From Spirochaetaceae bacterium (lineage in GTDB: Bacteria; Spirochaetota; Spirochaetia; SZUA-6; Bin103), in the NCBI GenBank assembly GCA_028821475.1, contig JAPPGB010000083.1, positions 1-64,000 on the forward strand: a stretch of 64,000 nucleotides of DNA. The letters are read 5' to 3'. Of this stretch, positions 931-27,069 are shown piece by piece. Under the pieces are notes generated by a model. It saw only the letters and a list, made by a program, of their open reading frames with translations, was not told the DNA's origin and made no database searches. Position numbers and translations under genes: made by a program. Position 1 is the first letter of the stretch. Every line of letters begins with the position of its first letter.

Positions 931-1434
931 ATGGCTGATTCTGCGACCGGTGTCCCGGCGGACACGGTCTACCAATCGAATGTGCGCGTGGAGCGGATCA
1001 AGGGTCCGTTGCGCCGCGCTCATCTGCCGGCCGAGTCCGACCCGGTGCTGTTTGGCGTCCACTCCGAGATTGCCGAGCACTACGGGGTCGATCCCGAGGT
1101 TCACGAGCCGCACACCACGACGCTCGACTACGTGGTGGCGGCCGCCGGCGGGTGACTGACCGGCACGTTGGGAGGCGCGCTGGAAGCGCGCGACATACCC
1201 GCCGGTGAGGGCTACCTCACCGGCGACACGACCGGATACATAGGCAAGGAAGGCTCGGTACTGGTGATTCGGGCCGTGCACGTCGACTACCGCCTGCGGC
1301 TGTCTCCGGACAAGCGCGCCGCCGCCGAGCGCGCGCATCGGTTTCACGCCGACCGCTGCCCGGTGGCCGTTTCGCTGCGCGACAGCATCCGCTTCACCAC
1401 CGCCCTGCACCTGGAAGACCTGCCCGCCGATTAG
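931..1434 (+). CDS. OsmC/Ohr-like selenoprotein (in-frame UGA = Sec75)
   Basis: Reading through the TGA at 1153-1155 gives one 167-residue OsmC-family protein; the two halves are in the same frame and each alone is an incomplete OsmC fold. The UGA falls where OsmC/Ohr peroxidases have their catalytic cysteine (context VVAAAGG-U-LTGTLGGALEAR, in the central helix). The second conserved cysteine is kept as C143 in RCPVAVSLRDS, and the strand IRAVHVDYRLRL is the usual OsmC core. The likely role is thiol-dependent reduction of organic hydroperoxides, with Sec as the attacking residue. A 6-bp hairpin begins 19 nt after the UGA (see SECIS entry), and the window contains selC, selD, selA and selB. 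OsmC-like selenoproteins are known from marine metagenomes, so the family is not new, but this copy would be annotated as two hypothetical fragments. A sequencing error or nonsense mutation is the alternative. Confidence 0.85.
1175..1191 (+). promoter_or_regulatory. Candidate bacterial SECIS hairpin of the OsmC-like gene
   Basis: GCGCGC at 1175-1180 pairs perfectly with GCGCGC at 1186-1191, leaving a five-base loop UGGAA that contains the two guanines expected in bacterial SECIS apical loops. The loop starts 25 nt after the UGA at 1153-1155, inside the known bacterial spacing of about 16-37 nt. It lies within the coding sequence, as bacterial SECIS elements do. The stem alone could arise by chance in GC-rich DNA; position and context make it credible. 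Confidence 0.7.
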
Positions 1435-22047: not shown

Positions 22048-22183
22048 GCGTCAACCGTAATCCGGCCGCAATCGGGTGACCACCGCAAAATGAACGCCGA
22101 ACCCGCTGCTCGGCGCCGGCCCCGGTATGCGGGCGCGGCTGGTTGAGTTACCCTGGATCAAGCGGCGCGACGCTCAGTTTCCG

Positions 22184-22279
22184 GGAGAGTGATGGGTGCC
22201 TGGTGGTCCCCGCGGTCTTCAAAACCGTTGTCGACCCTGCCGATGCAGGGCGAGGTGGGTTCGATTCCTACCCTCTCCG
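22184..22279 (+). tRNA. selC: tRNA-Sec (anticodon UCA)
   Basis: A 96-nt tRNA. Acceptor GGAGAG pairs with CUCUCC. The anticodon loop CUUCAAA (22217-22223) carries UCA at 22219-22221 on a stem GCGGU/ACCGU. The very long variable arm has stem CCCUGC/GCAGGG with loop CGAU. The T loop is UUCGAUU on stem GUGGG/CCUAC. The extended acceptor and long variable arm are diagnostic for selenocysteine tRNA. Discriminator G; CCA is not encoded. A U-C mismatch lies at the base of the acceptor stem. It decodes UGA with SelB, and ends only 31 bp before selD. Confidence 0.93.
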
Positions 22280-22310: not shown

Positions 22311-23375
22311 TTGACGCGCGAAGAGATCTTTCGGCTCACGGCGCTGTCGTCGTGCGCCGGGTGAGCGGCCAAGCTCAGCCAGCAGGCACTGGCCCAGGTC
22401 CTGGGCCAGCTTCCCGCGATCGACCATCCCAACGTGCTGATCGGTTCGGCTGCCGGCGACGACGCAGGAGTGTACCGGCTCGACGCCGAGCGGGCGCTGG
22501 TGCAGACGGTGGATTTCTTCACGCCGGTGGTCGACGACGGCTACACCTACGGGCGCATCGCCGCCGCCAACGCGCTGTCCGATGTGTACGCGATGGGCGG
22601 TCGGCCGCTGTCGGCCCTCAACGTGCTCGGCTTTCCCCCCGACCAGGTGCCCGACTCGGTGATCGCGGCGATTTTGCGCGGCGGCGCGGATACGGCGCAT
22701 GGTGCCGGGTGTGCGGTGATCGGTGGACATACGGTTCGCAACCCGGAGCCGATCTACGGCATGGCGGTGACCGGACTGGTACATCCGGAACGGTTGCTCG
22801 CCAAGGACGCGGCGCGGGCGGGGGATCTGCTGATGCTTACCAAGCCGCTGGGAACGGGCATTGTCACCACGGCCCTGAAGCGCGCTGCCGCGCCTGCGCG
22901 GGCGGTGGAGCGGGCCGTGGCCGCCATGACGCAACTCAATGCGGCCGGTCCTGATCTCGCCGCATCCGGGTTGGTTGCGGCCACTGACGTCACCGGCTTC
23001 GGGCTGACCGGGCACCTCGCCGACCTGTGCGCGGCCAGCTCATGTGGCGCGGAGCTGTGGTACGACCGCGTGCCGGCGCTGGATGCCTCGCTCCCGGAGC
23101 TGATCGCGAACGGCTGCATTCCCGGCGGCACCGCGGACAACCTGTCCGCTGCCGACGACTCGGTCGACTGGGGTACCTGCCCGGAGCCGACCCGGGTCCT
23201 GCTCGCCGATGCACAGACCAGCGGCGGGCTGCTGTTGTGCGTCCCCGAGGCGCGGCACGAAGCAGTGTGCGCCGTGCTGGCCGCCCACCATGCCGTGCAA
23301 GCGATCGTGGGACGCGTGACGAGCGCCGCGAGCGTACCCGTTGTCGTCACCGCCGGGCCTGCTCGCAGGCATTGA
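22311..23375 (+). CDS. selD: Selenide, water dikinase, itself a selenoprotein (Sec18)
   Basis: Read through TGA 22362-22364 this is a 354-residue SelD, the usual length (E. coli 347). It makes selenophosphate from selenide and ATP. Context SSCAG-U-AAKLSQQALAQ aligns with GAGCGCKIS of E. coli SelD, so Sec replaces the catalytic Cys17. Later GSAAGDDAGVY, DVYAMGGRPL and ATDVTGFGL are the ATP- and metal-binding motifs. TTG 22311 is chosen because AAGGGGG lies eight bases before it; GTG 22302 overlaps that RBS. A perfect 8-bp hairpin follows the UGA. Without read-through the gene would look like a short 5' ORF plus a SelD lacking its active site. It needs the Sec machinery it supplies. Confidence 0.93.
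22389..22409 (+). promoter_or_regulatory. SECIS hairpin of selD
   Basis: CUGGCCCA (22389-22396) pairs perfectly with UGGGCCAG (22402-22409) around the loop GGUCC, which carries the GGU expected by SelB. The loop begins 32 nt after the UGA, within the bacterial range. It is inside the coding sequence. Confidence 0.85.
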
Positions 23376-23647
23376 CGCCGTCACCGACGCAGGCGGTCCG
23401 CTCGGACAACCGCGGGGAGCCACTGCTTGCGGCCCGGCGTGCTGACCAGTCTCGGCTTCGCGCGCTCGCCACGGGGCAACCGTCACGATGGCCGCTTGCG
23501 GCCTCGCTTCCTGATCAGCGTCCGCTTCGCGCACGTGTTGCGGACCGGCGGCCGCCTGTACCGCCATCTGAGGTCGCGTGGTGGGCCCCGCCAAGCGACT
23601 CGCGATCCGTGCCACGATGCCGCGGATGTGGCAGTATCGGCCGCGCG

Positions 23648-25114
23648 ATGAGCAGCTCAAGCGGCGGTCCGCCGCGCACGGACGACCGCAACGAAGCAGG
23701 CGTGCGCCCTGCCCGCCGCAACCCGTTCGAGTCGATTCCGCCTGTCAGTCGACTGGTCGACGGACTCGCCGATCTGAGCCTCCCCCGCCGGTTGTGCGTG
23801 GATCTGGTGCGGCACGAACTCGACCTGGTCCGAGCCACCGATCCGGTTCCCTCGCGCCCGCTGATCGAGGCGCGCGTGCGCGGCACCGCGATGCGGTTGG
23901 CGGCTGCACGCCTGCGCCGCGTGATCAACGCCACCGGGGTGCTCCTGCATACCAATCTGGGCCGCGCTCCGCTGGGCGACGCCACCGGCGCGCTGGCTGC
24001 GGCCACCGGTGGCTACAGCAACCTGGAGCTGGATCTGATCGCCGGCACGCGCGGCAGCCGGGGACACTACGTGGAGCGCGCCCTGGCCGCGCTGTGCGAA
24101 TCCGAAGCCGCTACCGTGGTAAACAACTGCGCCGCCGCCCTGCTGCTGGCGGCGAGCGCCGCGACAGGCGATCCGGCGCGCCGCGAGGTGATCGTATCAC
24201 GCGGCGAGCTGATCCAAATCGGCGGCGGGTTCCGCATACCCGATATCCTCACCGCGGCCGGCGCGCGGCTGCGAGAAGTCGGCACCACCAACCAGACCAC
24301 GCGACGCGACTACGCGGCCGCGTGCGGTGCCGGCACCGCCGCCCTGCTCTCGGTGCACCGCAGCAACTTCGTCATGGAAGGGTTCGTGGCCGCACCGCGG
24401 CTCGGCGAGTTGCGGGAAGTGGCCGCGGACGCAGGCGTTCCGCTGATAGCTGACCTCGGCAGCGGCGCGGTGACGCGCACCGACGGTGTCGACGGCCTGC
24501 CGCGCGAGCCGCGCCCGCAGGATGTGCTGACAGCCGGGGCGACGCTGGTGTGCTTCAGCGGCGACAAGCTCCTCGGCGGCCCGCAGGCGGGGGTGATCGC
24601 CGGCAGGGCGGAGTGGATCGGCCGCCTGAAGGCGCATCCGCTGTTCCGCGCGCTGCGCCTCGACAAGGTGGCGCTGGCGCTGTTGCAGCAGACGGTGGAC
24701 TGCCACCTGGACGACGCCGGGACGGTTCCGCTCGAGCAAATGCTGCACGTCCCGGTCGCCGCGCTGCAGGCACGCGCACAGGCGGTCGTGCGGCGTCTTC
24801 CCCGTTCCCTGCCGGCGGCCGCTACCGATTGCACGAGCCGTCTCGGCGGCGGCACCCTGCCGGCGGCTATCCTGCCGTCAGCCGGCATCGGCATTGCGCT
24901 GCCCGGCGGCAGCGCCGACGCCTTCGCCGCCGCGCTGCGCCGTGCCACGCCGCCGGTGATCGGTCACATCCACCGCGACCGGGTCGTGCTTGACCTGCGC
25001 ACCGTGCCGCCGCACGACGACGAGCCGCTGACCGCGGCCATTGCCGCCGCCGCCGGGATGCTCGCGTCGCCCATGCCGGACGGCGCAACGGCCAGCGGTT
25101 CGGTCCCGCGATGA
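23648..25114 (+). CDS. selA: L-seryl-tRNA(Sec) selenium transferase
   Basis: A 488-residue PLP enzyme converting Ser-tRNA-Sec to Sec-tRNA-Sec with selenophosphate. Visible marks: INATGVLLHTNLGRAPL near residue 94, GGYSNLELDL, and the PLP lysine K307 in CFSGDKLLGGPQAG. ATG 23648 gives the normal N-terminus; the open frame extends upstream through selD-overlapping sequence that is not conserved. It is 272 bp after selD, and its stop overlaps the selB start (ATGA), so selA and selB are coupled. The 272-bp gap itself shows no feature I can name. Confidence 0.95.
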   Translation: MSSSSGGPPRTDDRNEAGVRPARRNPFESIPPVSRLVDGLADLSLPRRLCVDLVRHELDLVRATDPVPSRPLIEARVRGTAMRLAAARLRRVINATGVLLHTNLGRAPLGDATGALAAATGGYSNLELDLIAGTRGSRGHYVERALAALCESEAATVVNNCAAALLLAASAATGDPARREVIVSRGELIQIGGGFRIPDILTAAGARLREVGTTNQTTRRDYAAACGAGTAALLSVHRSNFVMEGFVAAPRLGELREVAADAGVPLIADLGSGAVTRTDGVDGLPREPRPQDVLTAGATLVCFSGDKLLGGPQAGVIAGRAEWIGRLKAHPLFRALRLDKVALALLQQTVDCHLDDAGTVPLEQMLHVPVAALQARAQAVVRRLPRSLPAAATDCTSRLGGGTLPAAILPSAGIGIALPGGSADAFAAALRRATPPVIGHIHRDRVVLDLRTVPPHDDEPLTAAIAAAAGMLASPMPDGATASGSVPR

Positions 25115-27069
25115 CGGTACGCAATTTCATCGCCACTACCGCCGGCCATATCGACCACGGCAAGAGCTCCCTGGTGCAGGCACTCACCGGCACCGATCCC
25201 GACCGGCTGCCGGAGGAGAAGCGGCGCGGCATTACCATCGAACTCGGTTTCGCGTACCTGGAACTGCCGATACCCGGCCGCGACCTGACCCTGCGCGTCG
25301 GGATCGTGGACGTGCCCGGGCACGAGGACTTCGTCAAGAACATGGTCGCCGGCGTGGGCGCCGCGGACGTCGCCCTGCTCGTGGTCGCCGCCAATGAAGG
25401 CTGGATGCCGCAGACCGAGGAGCACCTGCAGATCGTCGAGTACCTCGGCGCACGCTCCGGCGTGATCGTCCTCACCAAGGCGGACCTGATCCGGGATCCG
25501 GCGCCGGCGGTGGCCGAGATCCGCTCCGCGGTGGCCGGCAGCGGCTTCGCGGACTTCCCGATCGTGCCGGTTTCGGTGGTCGACGGCACCGGTATCGGTG
25601 CGCTGCGCACGGCGGTCGCCGCGCAGTTGCAGGCGCTGCCTCCGGGGCCGCCCGCCGGCACACCGCGCCTCGCCGTGGATCGGGCATTCGCCGTGGCCGG
25701 CGCCGGCACGGTGGTAACCGGCACGCTCTCCGGCGGCGCCCTGCGGCGCGGCCAGGAGGTGGAGGCTTGGCCGGGCGGGGCACGCGCCCGCATCCGCGGC
25801 GTGGAGAGCTTCAACCGATCCGCCGACCGTGCCGGCCCCGCCACCCGCGTCGCGCTGAATCTCGCCCCCACCGGCTCCTCGCGCGCGGCTCGCCCCCCAC
25901 GTCGGGGCGACCTGATCACCCCGCCGGACAGCGTGACCGCAACCGCATACGTCGATGCGCGGGTCGCGTGCAGCTCGCGAGGCCGCTCCGAACGCACCGC
26001 CCCGCTGCTGCGCGACGGAGTCCGCGTGCGCGTGCATCACGGCACCGCCAACGTACCCGGCACCGTCCGCCTGCAGGCGGACCCCGCCCGCGGCGGCCTG
26101 CAGCCCGGCGCGTCCGTCCTGGCACGGATTCACCTGGACGAGCCGCGCGCCCTGCTGATCGGCGACCGCTTCGTGCTGCGCGACTGGTCGCAGCGCCACA
26201 CCCTGGCCGGCGGCGTGATACTCGATCCGGCGCCGCACCGGCCGTTGCGCGACCCTGTGCAGCGCGCGCAGTTGCAGGCCATCGGCGACGCCCCGCGGCA
26301 GGTCGCGTCGATCCTCCCGGCACGCGCAGCAAGCAGCGGCATGGTGGCGCTGGCGGAGTTCGCAAGACTGGTACCGGCTGCCTCAGCCGAGCTGGAGCGT
26401 ACGGCGAACACTCTCGCAGCGGAGGGTCGGCTGCGGGTCTTCGACCGGTTCGCCGCCAACGCCGAGTGGTTTGACGGCCAAGTGGCGGCCGCCGCGAAAG
26501 CTATCGATGCTGAACTGCGCGATCATCCCGAGCGCCCCGGGGTTCCGGTTACCGCACTGCACACTGTAGTCGCGCCACCGTCGGCTGGCCTCCCCCGCCG
26601 CGCGGCCGGCGCCCTGCGCGATGCCGTTCTGGCCGCGTTGGCGGAACGCGGCTATCGCCGCTCGGGAGCGCTGATCCGCCCGCCCGGTCACGCGGCGGCA
26701 CTCCCTCCGCACCTCTCGCACGCGGCGAAAGCCATGCGCGCCACCCTGGCCGCCGCGCCCCTGGCACCACCGAGTCGCAGTCAACTTGCCGCGAATCGCG
26801 CCGGCCAGGCAGTACTCGATTACCTTGTCAACTCGGGGGAGTTGGTGCAGCTCGACCAGGACGTGGTACTGCCCGCTGATGCATACGAACAGGCGCGCGA
26901 GGTCGTCGTTGCCTACCTGCGCCGTCACCAGGCCGCCACGACCAGTGCGCTGCGTACGGCAGTGGGCACCAATCGCCGCGTCATCATCCCGCTGCTTGAA
27001 CGGCTCGACCGCGACGGCATAACGCTGCGCGCCGGCAGCGAGCGACGCCTCACGACCCCCGGCACGTAA
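25111..27069 (+). CDS. selB: Selenocysteine-specific elongation factor
   Basis: A 652-residue translational GTPase that carries Sec-tRNA-Sec to UGA codons marked by SECIS hairpins. G-motifs: AGHIDHGKSSL (P-loop), EEKRRGITIELGF (switch I), DVPGHEDFVKNM (switch II) and LTKADLI. EF-Tu-like domains II and III follow, and the C-terminal 250 residues form winged helices that bind SECIS RNA, including YLRRHQAATTSALRTAVG. ATG overlaps the selA stop by 4 nt. It ends 81 bp from a convergent toxin gene. Confidence 0.95.
   Translation: MTVRNFIATTAGHIDHGKSSLVQALTGTDPDRLPEEKRRGITIELGFAYLELPIPGRDLTLRVGIVDVPGHEDFVKNMVAGVGAADVALLVVAANEGWMPQTEEHLQIVEYLGARSGVIVLTKADLIRDPAPAVAEIRSAVAGSGFADFPIVPVSVVDGTGIGALRTAVAAQLQALPPGPPAGTPRLAVDRAFAVAGAGTVVTGTLSGGALRRGQEVEAWPGGARARIRGVESFNRSADRAGPATRVALNLAPTGSSRAARPPRRGDLITPPDSVTATAYVDARVACSSRGRSERTAPLLRDGVRVRVHHGTANVPGTVRLQADPARGGLQPGASVLARIHLDEPRALLIGDRFVLRDWSQRHTLAGGVILDPAPHRPLRDPVQRAQLQAIGDAPRQVASILPARAASSGMVALAEFARLVPAASAELERTANTLAAEGRLRVFDRFAANAEWFDGQVAAAAKAIDAELRDHPERPGVPVTALHTVVAPPSAGLPRRAAGALRDAVLAALAERGYRRSGALIRPPGHAAALPPHLSHAAKAMRATLAAAPLAPPSRSQLAANRAGQAVLDYLVNSGELVQLDQDVVLPADAYEQAREVVVAYLRRHQAATTSALRTAVGTNRRVIIPLLERLDRDGITLRAGSERRLTTPGT

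Follow-up and report, generated by a model that had tools for sequence, protein, structure and literature searches.

A predicted selenocysteine-containing OsmC-family protein in a Spirochaetaceae genome and its relatives in at least seven phyla

The gene at positions 931–1434 of the window (the whole stretch of 64,000 nucleotides that was analysed, from contig JAPPGB010000083.1 of Spirochaetaceae bacterium, GCA_028821475.1) is predicted to encode a redox protein of the OsmC family that contains selenocysteine (Sec). Judged by sequence comparison, we put the probability of this reading at roughly 0.9. Insertion of Sec at the in-frame TGA (U75), as postulated in the first-pass annotation, is close to certain on the same grounds; comparison with relatives supports it by a conserved UGA, by the equivalence of UGA and Cys at this site and by a hairpin that is conserved as RNA. 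Whether organic hydroperoxides are the substrate is, by analogy with known family members, an evenly balanced question. OsmC-like selenoproteins as such are already known, while the new element is a broad clade within the family in which nearly all members carry Sec.

The TGA is the sole break in the frame. Both halves lie in the same frame and together yield a product of 167 residues with U75 (Table 1). The Pfam model OsmC (PF02566) matches residues 61–157 of the read-through product, across the TGA, with an E-value of 9e-10 and a score of 39.3 bits (gathering score 27.5). This bears out the initial description of the locus as two same-frame OsmC halves split by a TGA at the catalytic cysteine. 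Searches with the NCBIfam models yielded no match to the 167-residue protein at E-values up to 0.01, so annotation pipelines probably split the gene into two fragments or miss it. Close to the osmC-like gene, the window features a PhyH-family dioxygenase gene (1464–2300), followed by a Phd/YefM antitoxin and YoeB toxin pair (2335–2915).

Table 1 Features of the osmC-like gene and of the Sec machinery in the window
Feature	Position	Strand	Evidence
osmC-like selenoprotein gene (predicted)	931..1434	+	167 codons read through; ATG 931; stop TAG 1432–1434
Arg28 codon, candidate activating Arg (putative role)	1012..1014	+	kept in 127 of 128 rows
Asp66 codon, candidate acidic active-site residue (putative role)	1126..1128	+	kept in 130 of 130 rows
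In-frame TGA, predicted Sec codon (U75) at the peroxidatic Cys position of the OsmC family	1153..1155	+	TGA in relatives, Cys in distant homologues
Bacterial SECIS hairpin (predicted)	1175..1191	+	stem 1175–1181 with 1185–1191; loop GGA 1182–1184 (G1182-G1183-A1184)
Cys143 codon (TGC), likely resolving Cys	1357..1359	+	Cys in all 124 TGA rows that can be read; counterpart in the OsmC CPV motif
tRNA-Sec gene, anticodon TCA	22183..22279	+	Rfam RF01852, 61.9 bits; ARAGORN
selD (selenophosphate synthetase), own in-frame TGA 22362–22364	22332..23252	+	TIGR00476, 359.8 bits, 1 TGA; translation
SelA domain (within ORF 23027–25114)	23921..25006	+	PF03841, E = 1.4e-108
selB, Sec-specific elongation factor	25111..27069	+	PF25461, PF09107, GTP_EFTU; TIGR00475, 255.5 bits

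An AlphaFold model of the protein (pLDDT 89), for which Foldseek returned structures of YhfA, Ohr and OsmC as top matches, indicates that the 167-residue protein has the OsmC fold. In a profile comparison, U75 aligned with C59 of Escherichia coli OsmC, with the Cys of the GGC motif of YhfA and with the Cys of solved OsmC proteins; the UGA thus lines up with Cys in OsmC homologues. The second cysteine of OsmC, which is part of the CPV motif, corresponds to C143, and retention of this putative resolving residue, already pointed out in the first-pass annotation, holds for every readable TGA-bearing row of the alignment of relatives (124/124). For locus L140, which shows X at this position, a second UGA was considered and dismissed, since the codon is TGN with an ambiguous base. 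Also conserved are Arg28 (127 of 128 rows), Asp66, located nine residues before U75 (130/130), and Gly78-Thr79 (131 of 131 TGA rows), the latter being part of the motif ULTGT in the window.

The thiol peroxidases Ohr and OsmC (e.g. Xylella Ohr and E. coli OsmC) share with the predicted Sec protein the fold, a nucleophile in the central helix and a resolving Cys in a CPV-type motif. The Sec protein differs from them in that Sec replaces the peroxidatic Cys, and its identity to solved members is only about 8–19% in structural alignments. In Ohr, the peroxidatic Cys is activated by Arg and Glu and is converted to a sulfenic acid, which is resolved by the second Cys; recycling is carried out by lipoylated proteins (PMC5962072). 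The catalytic Glu of Ohr is found 10 residues before the Cys (published numbering) and Asp66 nine before U75, an offset that counts against a firm assignment of the Ohr triad; Arg28 and Asp66 are candidates for its Arg and Glu.

In the proposed mechanism, SelB and Sec-tRNA(Sec) would decode UGA 1153–1155 as Sec under the guidance of the hairpin located 19 nt downstream, yielding an OsmC-family protein in which Sec75 occupies the position of the peroxidatic Cys. The Sec residue would most likely be the selenolate nucleophile that attacks a hydroperoxide or a similar oxidant. The selenenic acid formed would then be resolved by Cys143 to a selenenylsulfide, which a dithiol donor would recycle. 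The alignments support the predicted nucleophilic and resolving positions (Sec75 and Cys143), while we infer by analogy how Sec75 is activated, that it cycles with Cys143, and which substrate and reductant take part.

A Sec-containing OsmC-family protein that acts on something other than hydroperoxides, be it an oxidant of another kind, an electrophile or a protein thiol, is a serious rival, since the activity of YhfA-type proteins is not established (PMC5962072). YhfA (COG1765), which has a Cys without an in-frame UGA, unlike the Sec protein, and carries a GGC motif at the site, is the closest solved structure by fold (1ml8) and the best structural match to the model, and in the profile comparison, too, its alignment is better than that of OsmC. 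The Arg/Glu triad of Ohr is without a clear equivalent in the Sec protein, and no conserved neighbour gene of the loci found in the first scan hints at a substrate. However, Sec in the peroxidatic and Cys in the resolving position, together with the near-invariant Arg28, suit a peroxidase cycle, and those Ohr and OsmC proteins that have been characterised act as thiol peroxidases (PMC5962072). Weighing both sides, we regard such a non-peroxidase role as quite possible, at slightly under even odds.

A first scan of the contigs of 84,980 species genomes yielded 30 loci, all of which carry TGA at exactly the codon of residue 75. The genomes that hold these loci are labelled as Spirochaetaceae, Desulfobacterales, Chloroflexi/Anaerolineae/SAR202, Gemmatimonadetes, Poribacteria, Acidobacteria and several Actinomycetota. 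A normal stop follows 87–95 codons past the TGA, except in the copy of Rubrobacter marinus; locus L024 runs to the contig end. Among 61 genomes around the source genome, the gene is present in the source genome and one congener only. Profile searches identified TGA-bearing copies in 35 of 400 genomes of Chloroflexota, 22 of 247 of Desulfobacterota, 23 of 247 of Acidobacteriota and 26 of 39 of Rubrobacteria (carrier genomes tallied by hand from tables). Over all 143 loci, a few of which overlap, the codon of residue 75 is TGA in 131, TGC or TGT in 11 and TGG in one; distinct 60-base windows gave 127 TGA, 10 Cys and one Trp.

Of the 11 loci with Cys, ten encode distant OsmC proteins that fall outside the Sec clade. 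Inside the clade, only L091 (TGC) and L090 (TGG), both from Chloroflexota (G469 and G393, respectively), depart from TGA, and hairpin pairing is broken in both. L091 is likely a Sec-to-Cys replacement. L090, which in addition has an N-terminal frameshift, is likely a decaying copy. In the complete genome of the cultured strain Rubrobacter marinus SCSIO 52915 (L032/L100), the coding sequence is distributed over three frames while TGA and hairpin are preserved, which we read as assembly indels or early decay; intact copies were found in other Rubrobacteria genomes.

Compared to the copy of the congener (L003), 8 synonymous and 3 nonsynonymous changes were found upstream of the TGA (dN/dS 0.019/0.148) and 15 synonymous and 3 nonsynonymous changes downstream (dN/dS 0.016/0.219). 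These values indicate that purifying selection acts on both flanks of the TGA. That the TGA is a true stop, or arose through a sequencing error or through mutation in a pseudogene, leaving the two halves as remnants, is an extremely improbable explanation. It would account for the few decayed copies (the three-frame copy of R. marinus and the frameshifted L090 with TGG), but the same TGA occurs in more than 100 independent genomes, selection is purifying downstream of it and conservation at the RNA level extends past it. We ruled out this explanation based on the conserved TGA and downstream half: relatives retain both, where the first-pass annotation would have taken a normal stop or frameshift as evidence against a selenoprotein.

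Folding of the RNA downstream of the UGA yielded the hairpin proposed in the first-pass annotation, with the predicted GG-containing loop (GGA) and spacing of 19 nt between UGA and stem. The stem, given there as 6 bp, is however 7 bp long, with U-A or U-G as the last pair. The folding energy was calculated to be −12.8 kcal/mol, with z = −3.1 for a 31-nt segment. For a 51-nt segment (z = −0.3), the minimum free energy is not significant, so the SECIS assignment rests on conservation.

Among the 52 members of subfamily A, the entropy of the stem codons at +7, +8, +9 and +11 is 0.25, 0.14, 0.14 and 0.00 bits, respectively, compared to about 1.0–1.9 bits for other conserved codons of the block that specify Ala, Leu or Gly. 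Codon usage in the stem is accordingly narrow (GGC 46/48, GCG 51/52, CTG 51/52, GCG 51/51). The Glu codon at +10 switches freely between GAA and GAG, either of which can pair with U29; at +12, Arg is encoded by CGC or CGT in 51 of 52 members, and both of these codons pair with G23. In 74 sequences, pairing is kept in 96.9% of cells and 13 double changes were counted against 1.4 in shuffles, while the covariation score is 0.244 (0.183 for shuffled and at most 0.080 for slid alignments). Column pair 27–35 was observed as GC, AU, CG and GU. Frozen synonymous sites and compensatory changes, both read from sequence comparison, indicate that the hairpin is under RNA-level selection. Subfamily D (L102–L119, L135 and L136; Desulfobacterota and two Acidobacteriota, mostly with the motif UMMGT) retains a hairpin downstream of the UGA, the register of which differs from that of the main group.

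All Sec factors assigned to the window at first reading were found: SelA, SelB, SelD and tRNA-Sec (Table 1). The in-frame TGA in selD, in the context SSCAGU, indicates that selenophosphate synthetase is also a selenoprotein in the source genome. With ordinary selenoproteins that depend on a bacterial SECIS, such as SelD and formate dehydrogenase, the OsmC-like protein has in common the UGA, a downstream hairpin with a G in the apical loop and SelA/B/C/D, whereas the protein family is different.

A tRNA-Sec gene scoring above 60 bits was detected in 23 of 31 carrier genomes. Of the remaining eight, four encode SelB above the cut-off and two a partial SelB; neither tRNA-Sec above the cut-off nor SelB was found in the MAGs G082 and G087. 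No tRNA-Sec match was obtained for about a quarter of the Rubrobacteria carriers. These missing factors may fit incomplete MAGs. In Acidobacteriota, tRNA-Sec was present in 22 of 23 carriers and in 128 of 224 non-carriers (p = 1.7e-4, with no correction for phylogeny). In Rubrobacteria, most genomes harbour tRNA-Sec, carriers and non-carriers alike, and co-occurrence there is therefore uninformative. A reassigned UGA that codes for a standard amino acid, for instance Trp, could draw on the UGA read as sense in the osmC-like gene and on the TGG of one relative, but was ruled out as a similarly negligible alternative: Cys occupies the site in homologues from outside the clade, neighbouring genes, e.g. 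the PhyH-family gene, stop at TGA, tRNA-Sec and SelB are present, and the TGG copy is frameshifted with a broken hairpin.

The Sec clade spans at least seven phyla (Chloroflexota, Acidobacteriota, Desulfobacterota, Actinomycetota, Gemmatimonadota, Poribacteria and Spirochaetota). In a maximum-likelihood tree of 124 proteins (a quick search with long branches, so that fine detail is uncertain), it is set apart from the Cys outgroup with an SH-aLRT value of 98, and three state changes at the site suffice. TGA is the state in subfamilies B, C and D, each of which forms one side of a branch. The main clade mixes phyla, and by path the Chloroflexota rows are nearest to the spirochaete pair, which suggests horizontal transfer. 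None of the relatives was found on plasmids or viral contigs, giving no sign of a mobile carrier. Clustering of the flanking ORFs of the first-scan loci revealed no neighbour gene recurring in more than three loci.

The first-pass annotation correctly stated that OsmC-like selenoproteins had been described from marine metagenomes: three sequences from the Sargasso Sea in 2005 (PMC1088965) and five from the GOS dataset in 2008 (PMC2398784), with the motif UxxT. Reviews from 2022 and 2026 list the protein with one accession each (PMC9312934, PMC13188914). Like the marine type, the present proteins belong to the OsmC superfamily (COG1765/PF02566), with a predicted Sec in the redox motif and a bacterial SECIS downstream. 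Their motif U-[LM]-x-G-T, with G at +3 in 131 of 131 TGA rows, does not fit UxxT. The marine reports also give Cys homologues, 10 for the Sargasso Sea and 161 for GOS (PMC1088965, PMC2398784), whereas the present clade has one Cys version among more than 100 members. Its distribution over at least seven phyla includes Rubrobacteria, and it is set apart from the marine type by the published motif, with possible overlap. If the published marine sequences belong inside the Sec clade, the novelty lies in the extent of the clade. When 64 Gemmatimonadota genomes were screened with PF02566 for the UxxT type, TGA was detected only in two known carriers of the present type.

Nearly all selenoproteins are outnumbered by their own Cys versions (PMC13188914). 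A clade in which Sec is almost always retained is unusual and allows the benefit of Sec over Cys to be tested. We give about equal weight for and against an ancient OsmC clade with Sec as ancestral and standing state, spread of a single standalone gene across phyla, a shift of the SECIS register between subfamilies and very rare reversion to Cys. If true, it would represent a Sec-dependent detoxification enzyme unrelated to the selenoperoxidases with thioredoxin fold. The protein is a candidate selenoperoxidase without the thioredoxin fold, and its gene is present in many Rubrobacteria. Two TGA-bearing OsmC paralogues per genome were observed in G078 (L020, L097), G088 (L030, L098), G814, G407 and G1015.
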